A stretch of 64,000 nt of DNA from Agromyces sp. Soil535 (GTDB taxonomy: Bacteria; Actinomycetota; Actinomycetes; Actinomycetales; Microbacteriaceae). The stretch's first letter is position 1. Every line of letters starts with the position of its first letter. The stretch spans positions 374,504-438,503 of the forward strand of contig NZ_LMRW01000001.1 in assembly GCF_001428255.1 (NCBI RefSeq). The letters run 5' to 3'. Shown here one piece after another: positions 27,026 through 35,072 of this stretch. The notes beneath the pieces are model-generated. The model searched no databases and was not told where the DNA came from. It saw only the letters and a list, made by a program, of their open reading frames with translations. The translations under genes and the position numbers were made by a program.

Positions 27026-27754
27026 CTAGGCGCGGGCCGCCGCCCACTCGCGGCGCAGCACGCCATAGATCGCGGTGTCCTGCCACTCGCCGTCGTTGTA
27101 CTCCTCCTCGAGGATCGTCGCCTCGCGACGCATCCCGAGGCGTTCGCAGAGTGCAGCGGATGCCGCGTTCCGCGCGTCGAGGAAGGCCTGCACCCGGTGC
27201 GGGGCGAGTGTCTCGAACACGAAGTCGAGCACTGCGCCCGCCGCCTCGCGGGCGTACCCCCGGCCCTGGAAGTCGGGATGCAGCACCCAGCCGAGCTCGA
27301 GCTGCGCGTGCTTCACGCTCGAGACCCGCACCATGAAGTCGCCGATGACCCGATCGCGGCGGGGGTCATCGCTCGACGGCGTGCCGGGGAGGATCGCGGC
27401 GAAGAAGACGAAGTCGCCGTCGGTGGCGAGGATGCGGCCGGCGGCCCGCGTGGCCGTGTGCTCGTAGCCCTGGGTGCGGTCGCGCTCGGGCCAGGGCAGG
27501 TAGCGGATCACCTCGGGCAGGCGCTGGTACTCGAAGACGTCGGCGGCGTCGGATGCCTCGAGGGGGCGCAGCACGAGGCGCTCGGTGCGCAGCGGCGCAT
27601 CGGTGAGGACCGACGCGTCATACGGAAAAGGGAGCGCCGGCGGTCCGTCGGCCGCGGCAGCGGCGGCACGATCGGGCTCGGTCGAGGAACCGGCGGCGCG
27701 ATCGGGCCCGCTCGAGGCAGCGGCCATCGCAGCGGGGGAGGGCGCGTCGGTCAC
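27026..27754 (-). CDS. GNAT-family N-acetyltransferase (RimJ/RimL-like)
   Basis: 242 residues. A low-complexity Ala/Asp-rich N-terminus (about residues 1-45) precedes a RimJ-type GNAT domain: LRTERLVLRPLEASDAADVF, the acetyl-CoA loop of the form QGRGYA, and a C-terminal R-x-E-A strand. Such enzymes acetylate N-terminal amines of proteins or small molecules. The GTG start overlaps the hemA stop (GTGA), so it is translated with hemA, although a metabolic link is not evident. Part of its N-terminus is mirrored in the BTAD-hydrolase at 29251-30870. Confidence 0.8.
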   Translation of the reverse strand: MTDAPSPAAMAAASSGPDRAAGSSTEPDRAAAAAADGPPALPFPYDASVLTDAPLRTERLVLRPLEASDAADVFEYQRLPEVIRYLPWPERDRTQGYEHTATRAAGRILATDGDFVFFAAILPGTPSSDDPRRDRVIGDFMVRVSSVKHAQLELGWVLHPDFQGRGYAREAAGAVLDFVFETLAPHRVQAFLDARNAASAALCERLGMRREATILEEEYNDGEWQDTAIYGVLRREWAAARA

Positions 27755-29160
27755 GAGGCGTCGGCCTGCGACGCCCGCGGGGCGCGCCCGGCCGCATCCG
27801 CAGCCTCCGCGGGCCCGGTCACCTCCGCGGCATCCGCCGTCCGCGCATCCCGCACGGCCTGAGCGGCCGCGTCGGGCTTCACGCCGAACAGCGCCTCGAG
27901 CCCGTCGATCCAAGCGGCCTGCTCACCGGCGCGGGCGAGCTCACGCGAGCGCACCATCGGCGTGTGCAGGAGCACGCCCGCCATGTGGCGCAGCGCGGCC
28001 TCGGTGCGTCCATCGTCGTCGCCTCGGGCCTGCGCCCGCGAGATCTCGGCGTCGAGGATGTCGAAGACGTGCCGGCGCAGTGCGACGACCGCCGGGGCGA
28101 GGTCGCGCTCCTCGACGGTGTCGCCGAACGCGCGGGCGTCGCGGGTGACGATCGCGCGTGCGGCATCCGTGGAGCCGAGCTCCTCGAGCGGCGCGTGGAT
28201 CTTGATCGTCTCGAGGTCGAGCAGTTCGACGCCGGGCAGCCCGACGACATCGGGTGCCACGTTGCGGGGCAGTCCGAGGTCGATGACGAGCTGGCGGGCC
28301 TGGGCCGGCTCGGGCGCCGTGGCCCCGGGCAGCATGGCGACGGATGCCGCGAGCTCCTCGCGCCCGACGGCGATGAGCGCCCGGTCGACCACGTGGTGCT
28401 CGGCGGTGGTGCACGTGACGATGAGGTCCACGCTCGCTGCGACGGCGGCGTACTCGCCGCGCGCGACGGCCCCGATACCGTGGCTGTGGGCGAACCCGGT
28501 GCCGCGGCCCGACGGCGAGTAGACGCGCACGTCGGTGACGCCGCGGTCGCGGAGGGCGGCGAGCGAGGCTCCGGCGAAACGGCCGGTGCCCACGAGCAGC
28601 ACCCGCGTCTGAGCCCAGTCGGTGACGCGGCTCTCGGCGAGGTCGAGCGCGAGGCGCACGAGCGAGCGGCCCTCGCCGCCGATGCCGGTCTCGTTCTTCA
28701 CGCGGCGGGAGGTCTGCGAGGCGCGCTGGAACAGGCGCTCGAGTTCGGGAGTCGTGGTGCCCTCGGTGCGCGCCTTCTCGAGCGAGCGGCGCACCTGGCC
28801 GGCGATCTCGCCCTCGCCGACGACGACGGACTCGAGGCCGGATGCCACGGCGAACAGGTGTCCTGCCACGGCGTTTCCGTGCACGAAGCCGAACGTGGTG
28901 CGCAGCTCCTCGGGTTCGAGGCCCGCGACCGTGCCGACCGCGCGGATCGCCTCGTGCACCGCGGGAACCGGCGACGCGCCCTCGGGAGCGTCGAGGTCGA
29001 GGTACGCCTCGAACCGATTGCACGTGGCGACGACGACCGCGCCCCGCAGGGCGTCGTGACCGTCGAGGATGCGCGGTGCAGCCTGTTCCGCGTTCGCCGA
29101 AAGACGCTCGAGCATGTCGAACCCGGCGTTCTTGTGACTCGCGGTGAGGCAGATGAGCAC
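27751..29160 (-). CDS. hemA: glutamyl-tRNA reductase
   Basis: 469 residues. Reduces glutamyl-tRNA to glutamate-1-semialdehyde, the first committed step of the C5 heme pathway. The catalytic Cys47 lies in VVATCNRFEAYL; VVVGEGEIAGQVR and VLLVGTGRFAG are the family and NADPH-binding segments, and the C-terminus is the helical dimerisation domain plus an Ala-rich tail. GTG start behind TAGAAT at 6 bases, a promoter that is also preserved in the duplicated copy at 30981. It reads away from the other heme genes, separated from hemE by accessory DNA. Confidence 0.94.
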   Translation of the reverse strand: MLICLTASHKNAGFDMLERLSANAEQAAPRILDGHDALRGAVVVATCNRFEAYLDLDAPEGASPVPAVHEAIRAVGTVAGLEPEELRTTFGFVHGNAVAGHLFAVASGLESVVVGEGEIAGQVRRSLEKARTEGTTTPELERLFQRASQTSRRVKNETGIGGEGRSLVRLALDLAESRVTDWAQTRVLLVGTGRFAGASLAALRDRGVTDVRVYSPSGRGTGFAHSHGIGAVARGEYAAVAASVDLIVTCTTAEHHVVDRALIAVGREELAASVAMLPGATAPEPAQARQLVIDLGLPRNVAPDVVGLPGVELLDLETIKIHAPLEELGSTDAARAIVTRDARAFGDTVEERDLAPAVVALRRHVFDILDAEISRAQARGDDDGRTEAALRHMAGVLLHTPMVRSRELARAGEQAAWIDGLEALFGVKPDAAAQAVRDARTADAAEVTGPAEAADAAGRAPRASQADAS

Positions 29161-29172
29161 GAGGAGATTCTA
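29161..29172 (-). promoter_or_regulatory. leaderless-type promoter of hemA
   Basis: On the minus strand TAGAAT, 6 bases, then GTG at 29160. The same hexamer and spacing persist in the diverged duplicate at 30981-30992, which supports function. Confidence 0.65.
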
Positions 29173-29250
29173 CCTGCCGTCGATCACGGCTTCGGTCGGG
29201 GTGACGGAACGAGACATCCGGATGCCGCTCCGTGCGTGCCGACTGCCGCC

Positions 29251-30870
29251 TCAGCCGACTTCGGCCAGGAACCGGTCCATTTCGTCGACGAACCGAGGCC
29301 ATGCCGGTTCGGTGGCGAGCATCAGGTGGTTGTGGCCCTCCAGCGAGACGAATCGGCTGCCGGGGATCATCGACGCGAGCAAGCGCCCCTCGGCGAGGGG
29401 CGGCGCGAGGTCGCCTCGGACGTGGACGACGAGGGTCGGGCAGGCCACCCGTTGCGCCGCATCCGCGACGTCGATGACGCCGAAGCCGCGAATGAAGCGG
29501 GCAGCGTTGGTCGGCGAGGTGGTGAGCCGTTGCAAGTCGTTGAACTCGTCCCACTGCTCACGGGTGCCTTCGGGCATGAAGCGGGCGGTGAACACCTGAC
29601 GGAACGTCGGCTCGTCGCTTCCCCAGCCCAGCTCCGCGAGTTCGGGCATGAGCCGAGCGATGCGGAGCTCCTCGTCGTTGCGCGCCCTGATGACGTGTCC
29701 GTGGACGTAGCCGCCGTACAGGACCAGGGCGCTGACCCGCTCGGGGTGCCGGGCGGCGTACTCGACGGCCACCGCGGCGCCCTGTGACACGCCCAGCAGT
29801 GCGAAGCGTTCGTAGCCGGCAGCGTCGACGACGGTGGCCAGATCGTCGATCCACGCCTCGATCGTGAACGAGGTCGTGTCCCAGTCCGACAAACCGCAGC
29901 CGCGTTCGTCGTAGCGCAGCACGCGGTAGCGGCTGGTCAGGGCGAGCAGCCAGTGTCGCCACAGCATGCTCTCCCAGTCGTACTCGAGATGCGACAGCCA
30001 GTTCGCCGCCTTGACGAGGGGCGGACCCGAACCTTCGACGGCGTAGGCGAGCCGGACGGAGTCCGAGGCATGGCAGAACCGCACATCTTGGGTGGGCAGC
30101 ACCGCCGGCGTCGCGCCGTCTCTGACCCGATGCGGCGGGAGGGCGAGCGCTGCTTGACGCACCGCGACCGCGTCGTCACCGGGCTCGACGCCGAGCTCCT
30201 CGGCGAGTACGGCCGCCAGCTGCTCGTACTGGGAGAGCGCGGCCGCTCGATCACCTCGCTCGACATGGGCGCGCATCAGCGCAACGTGCGCCTGCTCGTC
30301 GGTCGGATCTGCGGCGACGAGCTGCAACCATCGGCCGCCGACGCGCATCAGCTGCCGATGGAGGTGCGCGACACTGTTGCGGCGGGCATCCGTCCACGAC
30401 TCGTAGCGGTCCTCGGGCAGGAGCTCTCCGGTGAAGATCCCAAGGGCGTCGTCGATGCCGACACCGGTGTGCAGAGCAGCCCTGGCTGCCGATTCGAAAC
30501 GGACGACGTCCACCTCCACCTCGCGCGACGGGAGGAGACAGAGCGTGTCACCCATCCAGGCGACTGCGTCTGCGCCGAGCGCGCGACGAGCGAAGTGGAC
30601 CGCCTTGTGGAGGCGTGGCGCCGCGTCGATGAGCGGCAGATCCGGCCACAGCATTTCGATCACCTGCTCGCGGTGCAGCCGCCGATCGGGCGCGAGGGCC
30701 AGGGCCTTGACCAGGTTCGCCGCCGAACGCCGCCCCCATTGCGAACGATCCACCACACGTCCGTCCAGCACGACCGAGAATGTCCCGAGCATGATGACCT
30801 GATCGACCGACCGCAGCGCGGGCGCCCCGTCGGCTGCGACCGCCGCAGCGCGGTCGATGTCATCGGTCAC
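29251..30870 (-). CDS. BTAD/SARP-type DNA-binding domain fused to alpha/beta hydrolase
   Basis: 539-residue two-part protein. Residues about 25-110 form an OmpR/SARP-like winged helix (RSAANLVKALALAPDRRLHREQVIEMLWP), and about 110-245 a bacterial transcriptional activation domain with TPR-like helices. From about 265 to the end it is an alpha/beta hydrolase with nucleophile GVSQG and terminal EGHNH. Such fusions suggest transcription control by a hydrolysable or bound small molecule (inference). The GTG start overlaps the stop of a 37-codon reading frame derived from hemA, so its translation is tied to a captured hemA leader. Confidence 0.82.
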   Translation of the reverse strand: MTDDIDRAAAVAADGAPALRSVDQVIMLGTFSVVLDGRVVDRSQWGRRSAANLVKALALAPDRRLHREQVIEMLWPDLPLIDAAPRLHKAVHFARRALGADAVAWMGDTLCLLPSREVEVDVVRFESAARAALHTGVGIDDALGIFTGELLPEDRYESWTDARRNSVAHLHRQLMRVGGRWLQLVAADPTDEQAHVALMRAHVERGDRAAALSQYEQLAAVLAEELGVEPGDDAVAVRQAALALPPHRVRDGATPAVLPTQDVRFCHASDSVRLAYAVEGSGPPLVKAANWLSHLEYDWESMLWRHWLLALTSRYRVLRYDERGCGLSDWDTTSFTIEAWIDDLATVVDAAGYERFALLGVSQGAAVAVEYAARHPERVSALVLYGGYVHGHVIRARNDEELRIARLMPELAELGWGSDEPTFRQVFTARFMPEGTREQWDEFNDLQRLTTSPTNAARFIRGFGVIDVADAAQRVACPTLVVHVRGDLAPPLAEGRLLASMIPGSRFVSLEGHNHLMLATEPAWPRFVDEMDRFLAEVG

Positions 30871-30980
30871 GACGTGCCAGTCATGTCAGTCGGCGGCGCC
30901 GTCTGTTCCGCGTTCACCGAGCGTCGCTCCAGCAGGTCGAACGCGGCGTTCCTGTGACTCGCGGTGAGGCGGATGAGCAC
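30867..30980 (-). CDS. truncated hemA copy acting as coupled leader reading frame
   Basis: 37 codons. The first 28 match the HemA N-terminus (MLIRLTASHRNAAFDLLER versus MLICLTASHKNAGFDMLER); the copy lacks the catalytic cysteine region. Its stop overlaps the GTG of the BTAD-hydrolase gene (GTGA), copying the way the real hemA overlaps its GNAT neighbour. Promoter, start codon and coding start are about 80% identical to hemA over roughly 130 bases by eye. Likely non-enzymatic; it can provide transcription and translational coupling. Confidence 0.7.
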   Translation of the reverse strand: MLIRLTASHRNAAFDLLERRSVNAEQTAPPTDMTGTS

Positions 30981-31030
30981 ACGCAGATTCTACCGGCGTC
31001 GAATGGGGTTCGATCGGGGTGACGCTGAAC
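30897..31030. repeat. duplicate of the hemA 5' region (partner about 29085-29209)
   Basis: The two segments share long identical runs such as TGTGACTCGCGGTGAGGC and AGATTCTACC, in the same orientation, with scattered substitutions. They flank the BTAD-hydrolase gene. Confidence 0.85.
30981..30992 (-). promoter_or_regulatory. captured hemA-type leaderless promoter
   Basis: On the minus strand TAGAAT, 6 bases, then GTG at 30980, identical in layout to the hemA promoter. Confidence 0.6.
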
Positions 31031-31074
31031 GGCGTGCGGCGTGCGCGTGCGGCGTGGGGCCCGCGACGGCCGGC

Positions 31075-31803
31075 TCAGCGACCGCGACGAGCCGCTGCGG
31101 CCATACTCGGGGTGATGATCGGGATCGGTGCGGTGAGCGGCGGAAGCTCGAGGCCCTCGGCGGCGAGGGCGGCACGGTGCTTCGCCTTCCAGCTGCGCAC
31201 CACGGCGAAGAACGGCGCGTCGGCCATGGCGAACCGCACGGGACGTCCGGACGACAGGATGATCGGCAGCTCGATGCTCGATCCACCGTGCCGCACGCGC
31301 AGCTCGACGATCTGCACCACCGATCCCCCGACGACCATCGAGTCGGCGCGGATCCCGCGCACCTCGGGCCATGGGAAGTGGGCAGCGCGACGGGGCCTGT
31401 GGCCGCCGTTCCAGAACGCCACGCCCAGTTCGTCGACGACGATCGAGTAGCGCGCACCGAGCCGCACGCGGTCCGCGTCGTCGTGCATGAGCTCGTTGAG
31501 GCGCTTCACGAGCAGCCGGCTCCGGATGCCGCAGCTGAGCTCTCCCCGGGCCGTCGCCGAGAGCGCGATCCGACGCGCACGGGTACGTGCCGCACGGCCG
31601 AGCTGCACGATGCTCCACACGATGAAGACGAAGAGGCCGACGGCCGCGAATCCGATTGCGATGCTGGAGGTGGGCATGGCCGGCATCCGCGGCATGAACC
31701 GTTCGATCATGGGCGCACCGGCGATGAGTCCGGCGACCACGGCCGCGGCGGCGAGGGCGACGAGCACGGTGAGGCTGGCGCGGTGCGGCGTTGCGGCGTT
31801 CAT
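31075..31803 (-). CDS. membrane protein with PH-like cytoplasmic domain (hypothetical)
   Basis: 242 residues. Two hydrophobic helices at the N-terminus (about 10-30 and 47-70) are followed by a beta-rich domain (SIVVDELGVAFWNGG, then FPWPEVRGIRADSM and IELPIIL) of the sort seen in bacterial PH-domain-like membrane proteins. No catalytic motif. ATG 31803 is chosen; an in-frame extension upstream is Arg/Pro-rich and looks non-coding. Function unknown. Confidence 0.7.
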   Translation of the reverse strand: MNAATPHRASLTVLVALAAAAVVAGLIAGAPMIERFMPRMPAMPTSSIAIGFAAVGLFVFIVWSIVQLGRAARTRARRIALSATARGELSCGIRSRLLVKRLNELMHDDADRVRLGARYSIVVDELGVAFWNGGHRPRRAAHFPWPEVRGIRADSMVVGGSVVQIVELRVRHGGSSIELPIILSSGRPVRFAMADAPFFAVVRSWKAKHRAALAAEGLELPPLTAPIPIITPSMAAAARRGR

Positions 31804-32130
31804 CGGGCGACTCCCGCTCGCGGCATTCGGGCTCGACGAACCGGCATGGACAGGGCGTTCGACACGATCGGGGACACGTCGTCTTCTTCTCCGTGGGGGC
31901 GGAGGCGCGCCGTCGTCGGCACGTCGTCGTGCCGGGGAACACGACGCAACCGACTGTAGCGTGCGAGCGCTCTCAAGCGACAGAGGAGACGGCGCAATCG
32001 GCGCGTCGTTGCGGCATTCGGCGACGATCTCGATGCTCGGAGCGGGCCGGAACATCCGTTTTCGTCACTCGACGACCCCGTCCTGCGACTCCGTCGGGAG
32101 CCGGCCGGCGAGTGGCCCGCCGCGCGACCG
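31804..32130. other. gap of about 330 bases, holding a LacI-type operator
   Basis: No gene recognised. It contains the operator-like palindrome at 31962-31975 with a TAGCGT box directly before it on the plus strand. Confidence 0.5.
31962..31975. promoter_or_regulatory. stranded LacI-family (CebR-like) operator
   Basis: TGCGAGCGCTCTCA matches the actinobacterial LacI-family operator pattern TGnGAGCGCTCnCA. TAGCGT at 31957-31962 gives a -10 box reading rightward, but the only thing downstream is an RHS remnant. It may be the leftover promoter of a lost sugar operon. Confidence 0.5.
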
Positions 32131-32723
32131 TAGGCGCTCGAGTACCACGCGTCCGACCAGCACGTGTCCACCCAGATCACCTCCGGGCCCGGCGCGGGCA
32201 CCCAAGTCGAGTACCTGCGGGATGTCACCGGCCGGGTCGTGCAACGCACCGTGACCACGGGCGGGGCAGAACCCGGAGACCACCCGGGTGCGGTACGGGT
32301 TCACCGGTGGTGGGGACTCTCCGGATCTTATCCTGGACGGGCAGAACACCCTCCTCGAGCAGGTGATCGGCCTGGCCGGCGGGGTCACCGTGACGAAGAC
32401 GAGCACCACGCAGTCGTGGTCGTACCCGAACATCCACGGCGATATCACGGTCACGGCGGATGCCGCAGGCACCCGGAGTCCGGGCGTGTTCCGGTACGAC
32501 CCCGTTCGGGCAACCGATCGACCCGACCACCGGGCAGACCAGCACCGGGACCGCGGACGACGCAGGCCCGGACGCGCTCCCCGGCAATGAGGACTGGGGT
32601 GGCTCGGCACGCACCGGAAGCTCACCGAGCATGCCGGGTCGATCCCGCTGCTGTTCGGCGAGCATCGTGAGACGCAATCTGCAGGGTTACTACTTGGCGA
32701 CGTTGCATGAATCGATGATGTTG
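32131..32723 (+). pseudogene. RHS/YD-repeat protein remnant, frameshifted and truncated
   Basis: Successive frames carry pieces of one RHS core: TSGPGAGTQVEYLRDVTGRV, then RYGFTGGGDSPDLILDGQN and SWSYPNIHGDITVTADAAG, then FGQPIDPTTGQT and DALPGNEDWG, then GWLGTHRKLTEHAGSIPL. The frame changes near 32275, at an extra base near 32504 and at a missing base near 32595-32600. The N-terminal repeats and the terminal core signature plus toxin are absent. RHS proteins are polymorphic toxins; this is a dead fragment. Confidence 0.8.
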
Positions 32724-32785
32724 ACCGCCTGTCAGAATGACCACGGGGTGTGTCGCGAGTGGCACCAAGGGAAAGCTGTCTGCCG

Positions 32786-33445
32786 ATGAGCGTTGTTGTA
32801 CCCGATTCGCTGTCCGTGAGCGGTGAGCTGCAGGTGTTCCGTTGGGTGCAGCGGAGTCAAGAGAACCTTGAGTTCTTGTGGACTCCGGGGCAGGACGTGA
32901 ATCCGGCGTTCGATGGCTTCGTGCGTGTCGAGCATTTCGAGGATCAGCCCAAGCTCGGTCCGGCCGTGCTGTACGACCGTCCGAGTGAGTCGTCGTACAC
33001 GACATCGGTCGAGAAGTTCAAGCGCAACAGGGCTTCCGGCGTCGTCCGGCTCGGCTCGCCCAAGAGTGAGGCGTTTCACGATCAGTCGTGGTTCCGACGG
33101 CCACCGCTGGACCCGGCCCGCCTGCAGGAGATCCTCGACAGGTTGCGAGCCGAACCGCCGCCTGGCACGTTCTTCGATGAGTACTGGACGCGGGCCCAAC
33201 TCGAGGAGCGGCAGTGGTACTCGGTGCACGGCTTGGCGAGAGTCGACAGCAGCCTCCACGAGGTGATTGTGCTCTGCAGCTGTCGGGACGACCCACCCAC
33301 CGTGTCGGCTCGTGCGGCGCTCGCACAAGTCGAGGCCGAGCTCGGATACGACTTCGCGGCCGTGGAGGTGTATCGGACGCACGACGTTGGTCCGGCTGTC
33401 AGTGGAATCGGAGCGCTCCGCATCGAGCGCAGAATCGGCGAGTGA
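32786..33445 (+). CDS. hypothetical protein downstream of RHS remnant
   Basis: 219 residues, not recognised. Composition looks like a soluble alpha/beta protein, with charged segments such as FKRNRASGVVRLGSPKSEAFHDQSWF and a beta-rich C-terminus (LHEVIVLCSCRDDPP). Third-position GC looks lower than in the surrounding genes, suggesting transfer. Its place right after an RHS remnant makes an orphan immunity protein a possibility, but no sequence motif shows this. ATG 32786 has only a weak purine run upstream; an in-frame start at 32750 is possible. Confidence 0.6.
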   Translation: MSVVVPDSLSVSGELQVFRWVQRSQENLEFLWTPGQDVNPAFDGFVRVEHFEDQPKLGPAVLYDRPSESSYTTSVEKFKRNRASGVVRLGSPKSEAFHDQSWFRRPPLDPARLQEILDRLRAEPPPGTFFDEYWTRAQLEERQWYSVHGLARVDSSLHEVIVLCSCRDDPPTVSARAALAQVEAELGYDFAAVEVYRTHDVGPAVSGIGALRIERRIGE

Positions 33446-33663
33446 ACGAAATCGAGCGAACACGCTCAGGGAGGGCCATCCATGCTCGACTCCCTGGCAT
33501 AGCCAACAATCCGAAGGTAGGTCAAGTGCTACGTCTGCAAGGTAGCCGCTTGGAGGTCACATCGGTTACCCGACGCGTCGCTCGACGCACAGCGGACGTG
33601 ACCGCCACAGTGCGAGACGATCGCGAATCTACGACGAAGGCTTCGCAGATCCACGACGAATGA
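33442..33663 (+). CDS. small hypothetical protein, coupled to the preceding gene
   Basis: 73 codons starting with a GTG that overlaps the preceding stop (GTGA). The middle (KVGQVLRLQGSRLEV, then VTRRVARRTADVTATV) looks like alternating beta strands. Same relaxed codon use as its neighbour. No known family; could be a genuine small partner or an accidental open frame. Confidence 0.4.
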   Translation: MNEIERTRSGRAIHARLPGIANNPKVGQVLRLQGSRLEVTSVTRRVARRTADVTATVRDDRESTTKASQIHDE

Positions 33664-33866
<203 letters not shown>

Positions 33867-35072
33867 ATGTCACGCGTGATCCTCTCCCCGCAGCATCCCC
33901 TGTCCGCCGGCCTCACGGGCGACTCGCGCCTGGTGCGGGCCTACCGTGGGGAGCGCAGTGACACGACGCCCGTGTGGTTCATGCGGCAGGCGGGGCGATC
34001 GCTGCCCGAGTATCGCGACCTGCGCGTCGGCACGCGCATGCTCGACGCCTGCCTCGACCCGGGGATGGCGTCGGAGATCACGCTGCAGCCGGTGCGCCGC
34101 CACAAGGTCGACGCGGGCATCTTCTTCAGCGACATCGTCGTGCCGCTGAAGCTCGTGGGCGTCGACGTCGAGATCCAGCCCGGCCGCGGGCCCGTCTTCA
34201 GCAAGGGCTATGCGGATGCCGCGGGCGTGGCCGAGCTCACGTCGATCGACCCCGCGCGTCTCGACGCGGCATCCGGACCCATCACGGAGGCCGTGCAGCG
34301 CACTGTCGCCGAGCTGAACGTGACGGCGCCGAGCGGGATTTCGACAGGCTCAACCAGCAGCGCGACAGGCTCAACCAGCGGAAGCGCTGCCTCAACCCGC
34401 AGCACGCCATTGATCGGGTTCGCGGGCGCCCCGTTCACGCTCGCCGCGTACCTCGCCGAGGGCGGCCCCTCGAAGGACCACCTCGCGGCGCGCACGCTCA
34501 TGCACGCCGACCCCGGCGCCTGGAGCGCGCTCATGGAGTGGACCGCCGAGCTCACCGGGCGCTTCCTGCGCACGCAGGTGCTGGCCGGGGCATCCGCCGC
34601 GCAGCTCTTCGATTCCTGGGCGGGCGCGCTCTCGCTCGCCGACTACGAGACGCACGTGGCGCCGGCGTCGGCGAAGGCGCTCGCGCACGTGCACGACCTC
34701 TCCTATGAGGTCGCGGATGCCTCGGGCACGACCGAGACCCGTCCGGTCCCCGTCGTGCACTTCGGCGTCGGCACGGGCGAGCTGCTCGGCGCGATGCACG
34801 GCATCGGCGTCGACACCGTCGGCGTCGACTACCGCGTTCCGCTCGACGTCGCGGCGCACCGGGTCGGCGCCGACGTGCCGCTGCAGGGCAACCTCGACCC
34901 GGCGCTGCTCGCCGCCCCGTGGCCGGTGCTCGAGGCCGCAGTGCGCGACGTGCTCGCCCGCGGGAAGGCCGCGCCGGCACACGTGTTCAACCTCGGGCAC
35001 GGCGTGCCGCCCGAGACCGACCCGACCGTGCTCACCCGCGTAGTCGAGCTCGTGCACGAGGCGGGGGCATGA
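33867..35072 (+). CDS. hemE: uroporphyrinogen decarboxylase
   Basis: 401 residues. Decarboxylates uroporphyrinogen III to coproporphyrinogen III. The active-site opening [23 protein letters not shown] and [13 protein letters not shown] are intact. Residues about 157-180 are a Ser/Thr/Gly-rich insert ([16 protein letters not shown] and on) encoded by tandem repeat DNA; without it the length is near that of typical HemE (about 350-375). The insert falls in a loop before the [11 protein letters not shown] strand, so activity may survive. Start ATG 33867 or in-frame GTG 33876. Stop overlaps hemY by 4 bases. Confidence 0.93.
34335..34406 (+). repeat. repeat-derived in-frame insertion inside hemE
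   Basis: TTTCGACAGGCTCAACCAGC is followed by a second CGACAGGCTCAACCAGC 21 bases later and a third, degenerate CTCAACCCGCAG. The period is 7 codons, so the frame is kept. The ends resemble the dispersed palindromic repeats of this window. Confidence 0.8.

Follow-up and report, generated by a model that had tools for sequence, protein, structure and literature searches.

Genes that have come under the promoter of another gene are known largely from laboratory selection. The introduction of PMC11111574 treats deletions and tandem duplications as established routes to promoter capture, and the cases cited there, which are largely from laboratory selection, include the Salmonella his genes, the citrate transporter gene of the E. 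coli long-term experiment, and horizontally acquired genes. The gene described here, which encodes a predicted BTAD regulator fused with an alpha/beta hydrolase (hereafter designated the BTAD gene), is an apparent natural case of the takeover of a promoter region from a neighbour, hemA. It lies in a 64,000-nt stretch of DNA (the window), to whose positions all coordinates refer; the DUF gene, the relic hemA start, the BTAD gene, hemA, and the GNAT gene are all on the minus strand (Table 1). A search of a limited literature collection returned nothing relevant on leaderless hemA or on BTAD-hydrolase proteins.

Nine families of direct repeats were found in positions 28500–33500, of which the longest pairs 29073–29177 with 30893–30997 (85% identity, ungapped, over 105 nt). 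A BLAST search of the same genome with a 201-nt hemA leader as the query likewise returned, in addition to hemA itself (E 5.2e-101), a copy at about 30893–31030 (82% over 139 nt, E 1.8e-31). A chance repeat is ruled out by these values, and an assembly duplicate is unlikely, because the copies differ by 15–18% and both lie within a 709,912-base contig. In both copies, TAGAAT stands 6 nt upstream of a GTG, that of hemA at 29160 (copy 1) and that of the second copy at 30980 (copy 2). The homology extends into about 45 nt of promoter-side sequence, in which copy 2 is separated from copy 1 by substitutions and by a 1-nt deletion just 5′ of TAGAAT. The frame opened by copy 2 is 37 codons long; its stop, TGA (30869–30867), overlaps the BTAD start, GTG (30870–30868), just as the TGA of hemA overlaps the GNAT GTG at 27754. 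Thus, the earlier note was right that the hemA upstream region and first codons recur in the same orientation at about 80% identity (82–85% by the repeat search and BLAST), with the TAGAAT box and the GTG, and that the frame of the copy ends after 37 codons in an overlap like that of hemA and GNAT; the alignment of the two segments that it had proposed proved significant. Its view that a second, bodiless hemA start lies before the BTAD gene, positioned to drive it, also agrees with the repeat and the coordinates.

Table 1 Features of the hemA locus, in window coordinates
Feature	Position	Strand	Remark
Relic hemA start, promoter-side half (copy 2)	30980..31030	-	TAGAAT, 6-nt gap, GTG; directly after DUF
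Relic hemA leader frame	30867..30980	-	37 codons, ~29 alignable to hemA; TGA overlaps next GTG
BTAD gene, first ~20 codons, GNAT-start-like	30811..30870	-	VTD..DRAAA.AADG.PALR; profile matches codons 3-20; extent approximate
BTAD / alpha-beta-hydrolase gene, 539 aa (predicted)	29251..30870	-	PF03704 1.7e-12, PF00561 3e-18
Live hemA start (copy 1), promoter core + first codons	29073..29209	-	Repeat and leader alignment
hemA, glutamyl-tRNA reductase, intact	27751..29160	-	NF000750, 9.8e-147
GNAT acetyltransferase, hemA partner	27026..27754	-	GTG overlaps hemA TGA
DUF, unknown function, anchor of ancestral order	31078..31803	-	5′ of hemA in 52/57 relatives

The leader was then sought in 60 genomes of the genus, including this one, with at most 13 candidates scored in each. 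A hemA leader was matched in 58 of the 60, and, among the candidates scored, a second long copy occurs only in this genome, second matches in the others being at most about 50 nt long with E no better than 9.7e-5. Comparison of the hemA neighbourhood with those of 57 relatives, covering about 1.9 to 7.2 kb of upstream sequence per locus, revealed DUF-hemA-GNAT as the order of the genus: DUF precedes hemA in 52 of the 57, its alignment ending less than 200 bp from hemA in 49, and a GNAT gene follows hemA in 20 of the 21 relatives examined for it. In the other three of the 52, DUF and hemA are separated by a BTAD remnant (Agromyces sp. H66, G036), by another inserted gene (G012), or by 315 bp (G082), a filler that looks repeat-like by eye. 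From this order it follows that copy 2, adjoining DUF, stands at the ancestral site of hemA and that the live hemA is the displaced one, pushed downstream. The second hemA start without a body, as described in the earlier note, therefore stands before the BTAD gene, but not as the duplicate: it is the stump left in the ancestral place beside DUF. The gene inserted between DUF and hemA in G012 (locus L063) is dehydrogenase-like by eye. Since G012, a neighbour of G036 on the tree, carries this different insert, genes may have entered the space between DUF and hemA repeatedly; the idea that such insertions duplicate the leader was rejected, G012 having an insert there but no second leader.

BTAD homology was detected in the compared stretches of only one of the 57 relatives, Agromyces sp. 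H66, in which the order is DUF, a decayed BTAD gene, and hemA. The decayed gene is reduced to its N-terminal part and its last ~52 codons, and its start, read by eye, is TAGGCT..GTG, without a hemA leader. Because it occupies the same place without that leader, the hemA-type start of the BTAD gene was probably acquired in the lineage of the present genome. Thus, the comparison with relatives, based on the one decayed gene of H66, gives the result that the earlier note had set as a refutation, as far as a conserved arrangement of hemA leader and BTAD gene is concerned, and favours the capture put forward there as an event of this lineage. An upstream region native to the BTAD gene and conserved with it is unsupported as well, its single counterpart starting differently. 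Over 86 codons, the two BTAD genes differ by dS 0.49 (0.492) and dN 0.065, and the resulting dN/dS of ~0.13, which includes the time before the capture and before the decay in H66, shows purifying selection on the BTAD gene as far as these codons tell; 50 codons taken alone gave dS 0.553 and dN 0.056. For the same pair of genomes, dS is 0.45 for hemA and 0.49 for DUF, and ranges over 0.38–0.49 among hemA, DUF, hemE, and GNAT. As the dS of the BTAD gene is similar to those of the core genes, the gene has probably occupied this locus roughly since the two species diverged, with losses elsewhere, or else moved there early.

The GNAT proteins of several relatives begin with stretches such as RAAAAAADGPPALRFP, others keeping only DGPP onward, and the N-terminus of the BTAD gene product reads VTDDIDRAAAVAADGAPALR. 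When the 728 frames of the window were searched with a GNAT N-terminal profile built from 20 relatives, the BTAD frame ranked second, behind GNAT itself (E 6.7e-4 for the whole frame and 0.0041 for the best stretch; next frame, 0.62). Moreover, among 5,644 frames from 87 loci (674 kb), some of them overlapping and with GNAT starts separated by motif and by eye, it was the top match besides GNAT starts, with 12.9 bits vs 10.3 bits for the next-best match that is not a GNAT start, a margin of 2.6 bits. The match consists of about 18 Ala-rich residues, in register at the start of the BTAD gene, directly behind the hemA-type stop codon, and this short profile match tentatively places the GNAT/BTAD joint near codon 20; an internal ATG at codon 27 (30792) is a possible alternative start. 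The GNAT-like stretch is absent from two full-length relatives of the BTAD protein and from two proteins matching its N-terminal part, and the BTAD remnant of H66 begins differently, yet aligns loosely to it at the DNA level. Because the first codons of the BTAD gene match the GNAT start, the TGA/GTG overlap is probably homologous to the hemA-GNAT junction, and the capture would have included the whole operon start beyond the leader, at variance with the earlier note, according to which only the hemA promoter and start had been taken over. Its version, in which the hemA leader alone was copied before the BTAD gene and both the overlap and the GNAT-like N-terminus are coincidental, agrees with the certainty of the repeat itself, the shortness and Ala-richness of the GNAT match, and the fact that GTGA overlaps are common; we nevertheless consider it quite improbable, given that copy 2 sits at the ancestral hemA position and that the GNAT-like stretch appears exactly where a GNAT start is expected and is the best match other than GNAT starts in the 5,644 frames.

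Collectively, the segment is best explained, with a probability of roughly two in three, as the fossil 5′ end of a hemA-GNAT operon, still in its original place and now the start region of the BTAD/hydrolase gene. The ancestor would have had the arrangement of Agromyces sp. H66, with the BTAD gene separating DUF from hemA. A duplication or illegitimate join would have fused the BTAD gene, close to its native start, in frame to GNAT codon ~20, after which the redundant first hemA would have shrunk to about 29 codons plus the overlap, the GTGA being inherited from the hemA-GNAT junction. No intermediate genome was found among the genus genomes searched. As to expression, a leaderless mRNA would begin at the TAGAAT box (30980), and ribosomes would read the 37-codon relic, terminate at its TGA, and reinitiate at the GTG that overlaps it; the BTAD protein would thus be expressed from a hemA-type promoter and be coupled as GNAT formerly was. 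That a bicistronic start module was taken over in this way, with translational coupling of the BTAD/hydrolase regulator to the 37-codon hemA fossil and expression in step with hemA, is a tentative proposal, to which we assign somewhat less than even odds.

The promoter core and the relic peptide of copy 2 were compared with their counterparts in the genus. TAGAAT is located 6–7 nt upstream of the hemA GTG in 53 of 57 relatives and TACAAT in the other four, a closeness to the GTG that we take to mark a leaderless-type start. Copy 2 matches all 10 columns of positions −12 to +3 that are kept in at least 90% of 56 relatives, G006 (locus L110), with a broken hemA alignment, being left out of this count as well as of the hemA+hemE tree, the leader and DUF trees, and the leader-codon comparison. 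A sigma-70 consensus scan of 29100–31150 gave no promoter, the live hemA start included, and a terminator scan of the same region found none. Copies 1 and 2 differ by 12 changes in 87 coding positions, which are resolved into 7 replacement and 5 silent changes by Nei-Gojobori paths (dN 0.116, dS 0.273) and into 9 and 3 by a codon-wise count; the hemA starts of four relatives differ from copy 1 by 0, 1, 3, and 3 replacements. Because copy 2 has 7–9 replacements vs 0–3 in these relatives, the relic leader peptide looks to be under little constraint. From 12 changes in 87, we estimate that a core of 10 positions would be retained without selection about one time in four, and the survival of the core alone is therefore no proof of function. 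The relic could accordingly be an inert scar, the BTAD gene being silent or started at the internal ATG (30792) by its own signals, as would suit the little-constrained peptide, the 1-nt deletion in the promoter-side sequence, the lack of a sigma-70-type promoter at either hemA start in the consensus scan, and the decay of the BTAD gene in H66. We judge such a scar unlikely, although it keeps appreciable weight, in view of the intact TAGAAT-N6-GTG core (10/10), the intact overlap and frame, and a BTAD gene that is full length with dN/dS ~0.13 (86 codons, with pre-capture and pre-decay time included).

Several comparisons hint at an imported origin for copy 2, in which homologous recombination with DNA of a G036/G012-like lineage would have brought in a DUF-relic-BTAD block, its right-hand crossover falling close to the start of the live hemA; this variant of origin is compatible with the fossil operon start. 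Two leader codons of copy 2 (GCG and CTG) are common to G036 and G012, the full leader tree pairs copy 2 with G012 (95/81), and a tree holding copy 2 with G036 and G012 gave a better likelihood than that of the free search. The dS of DUF is lower to G036/G012 (0.49/0.53) than to G030/G009 (0.68/0.62), a lean that hemA and hemE do not show, and a BTAD gene in the DUF-hemA place is otherwise found only in G036 among the 57 relatives. Nonetheless, copy 2 forms a long branch; the coding-only tree contains no starred set with copy 2, though G012 and G036 lie closest by path; a joint placement of the two copies was not rejected (p-AU 0.45 and 0.36); and the DUF tree joins G000, weakly (46/67), to G030/G009, with G036/G012 not rejected (p-AU 0.39). 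Also against the import are the GNAT-like start of the BTAD gene, VTD, vs VS in G036/G012, and a BTAD dS as high as those of the core genes. The VTD start resembles those of G000, G030, and G009, the leader nearest to copy 2 by plain identity is that of G009 (76 of 87), and leader clade tests (p-AU 0.36–0.63) singled out no grouping. In a quick hemA+hemE tree, the present genome is grouped with G030 and G009 (92, the fork drawn open) and G036 with G012 (98). On balance, the import is possible, with the odds leaning against it.

Several other features were observed around the locus. The DUF protein has no Pfam family at the cut-off. Between DUF and hemE lies an intact 221-aa frame (32780–33445) of unknown family, for which no match was found in the compared hemA-locus stretches of the 57 relatives, and positions 32164–32670 contain, by eye, an RHS/YD-repeat-like fragment, apparently broken across frames, whose 168-aa frame has no Pfam family. 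A 22-nt tandem repeat (33621–33682; 2.8 copies, 72% matches) and, between an orphan frame and hemE, a hexanucleotide tandem repeat, CGGTGC (33735–33792; 9.7 copies), are also present. In hemE, a Ser/Thr-rich in-frame stretch at about 34335–34412 exceeds that of most relatives by about 19 codons; of the 14 relatives compared, 12 carry short forms and two, G012 and G021, carry different inserts at this same position. The DNA of the stretch appears by eye to consist of a repeated GACAGGCTCAACCAGC unit.

The BTAD protein matches PF03704 at 1.7e-12 (48.4 bits vs a cut-off of 22.1), covering profile positions 84–144 of 146 only, and PF00561 at 3e-18; esterases of solved structure match as well, from 2.7e-16. 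A Pfam search of residues 1–250 up to E 10 returned BTAD and three sub-threshold matches of other kinds, with no winged helix. The LipJ hydrolase-cyclase model NF058673 matched the protein at 9.4e-27, far below its cut-off. Only two full-length relatives were met, on contig 32 of G036 and in Kribbella sp. (48–50%), and in a class-wide search of 394 genomes at E <=1e-70, 17 genomes besides this one matched, in the hydrolase half only. Winged-helix/hydrolase fusions were seen by eye in G001 and G016.

In comparison with known proteins, the BTAD domain is common to SARP-type regulators and this protein (PF03704), which, unlike them, has a C-terminal alpha/beta hydrolase and in which Pfam recognised no DNA-binding domain. 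With other actinobacterial hydrolase fusions it shares a homologous hydrolase half (44–60% identical in the matches with E <1e-70), and it is distinguished from the winged-helix/hydrolase and LipJ-type fusions by its N-terminal BTAD. The takeover, if true, would have placed a regulator under a heme-pathway promoter, and a case from nature in which the relic can still be seen, dozens of congeners keep the ancestral order, and a counterpart, albeit decayed, escaped capture would allow the wear of a captured start module to be studied: here, the peptide drifts, and the promoter core and the overlap remain. As in promoter capture described in the introduction of PMC11111574, a gene appears to have been joined to its neighbour's promoter by a local rearrangement; a second copy of another gene's promoter region lies 5′ of the captured gene, and one relative, G036, carries the same gene, in decayed form, without the captured promoter. 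Unlike the cases cited in that introduction, the present one is found in a natural genome, and the captured piece seems to comprise a promoter core, the stump of a first gene, a stop/start overlap, and the first codons of a second gene.
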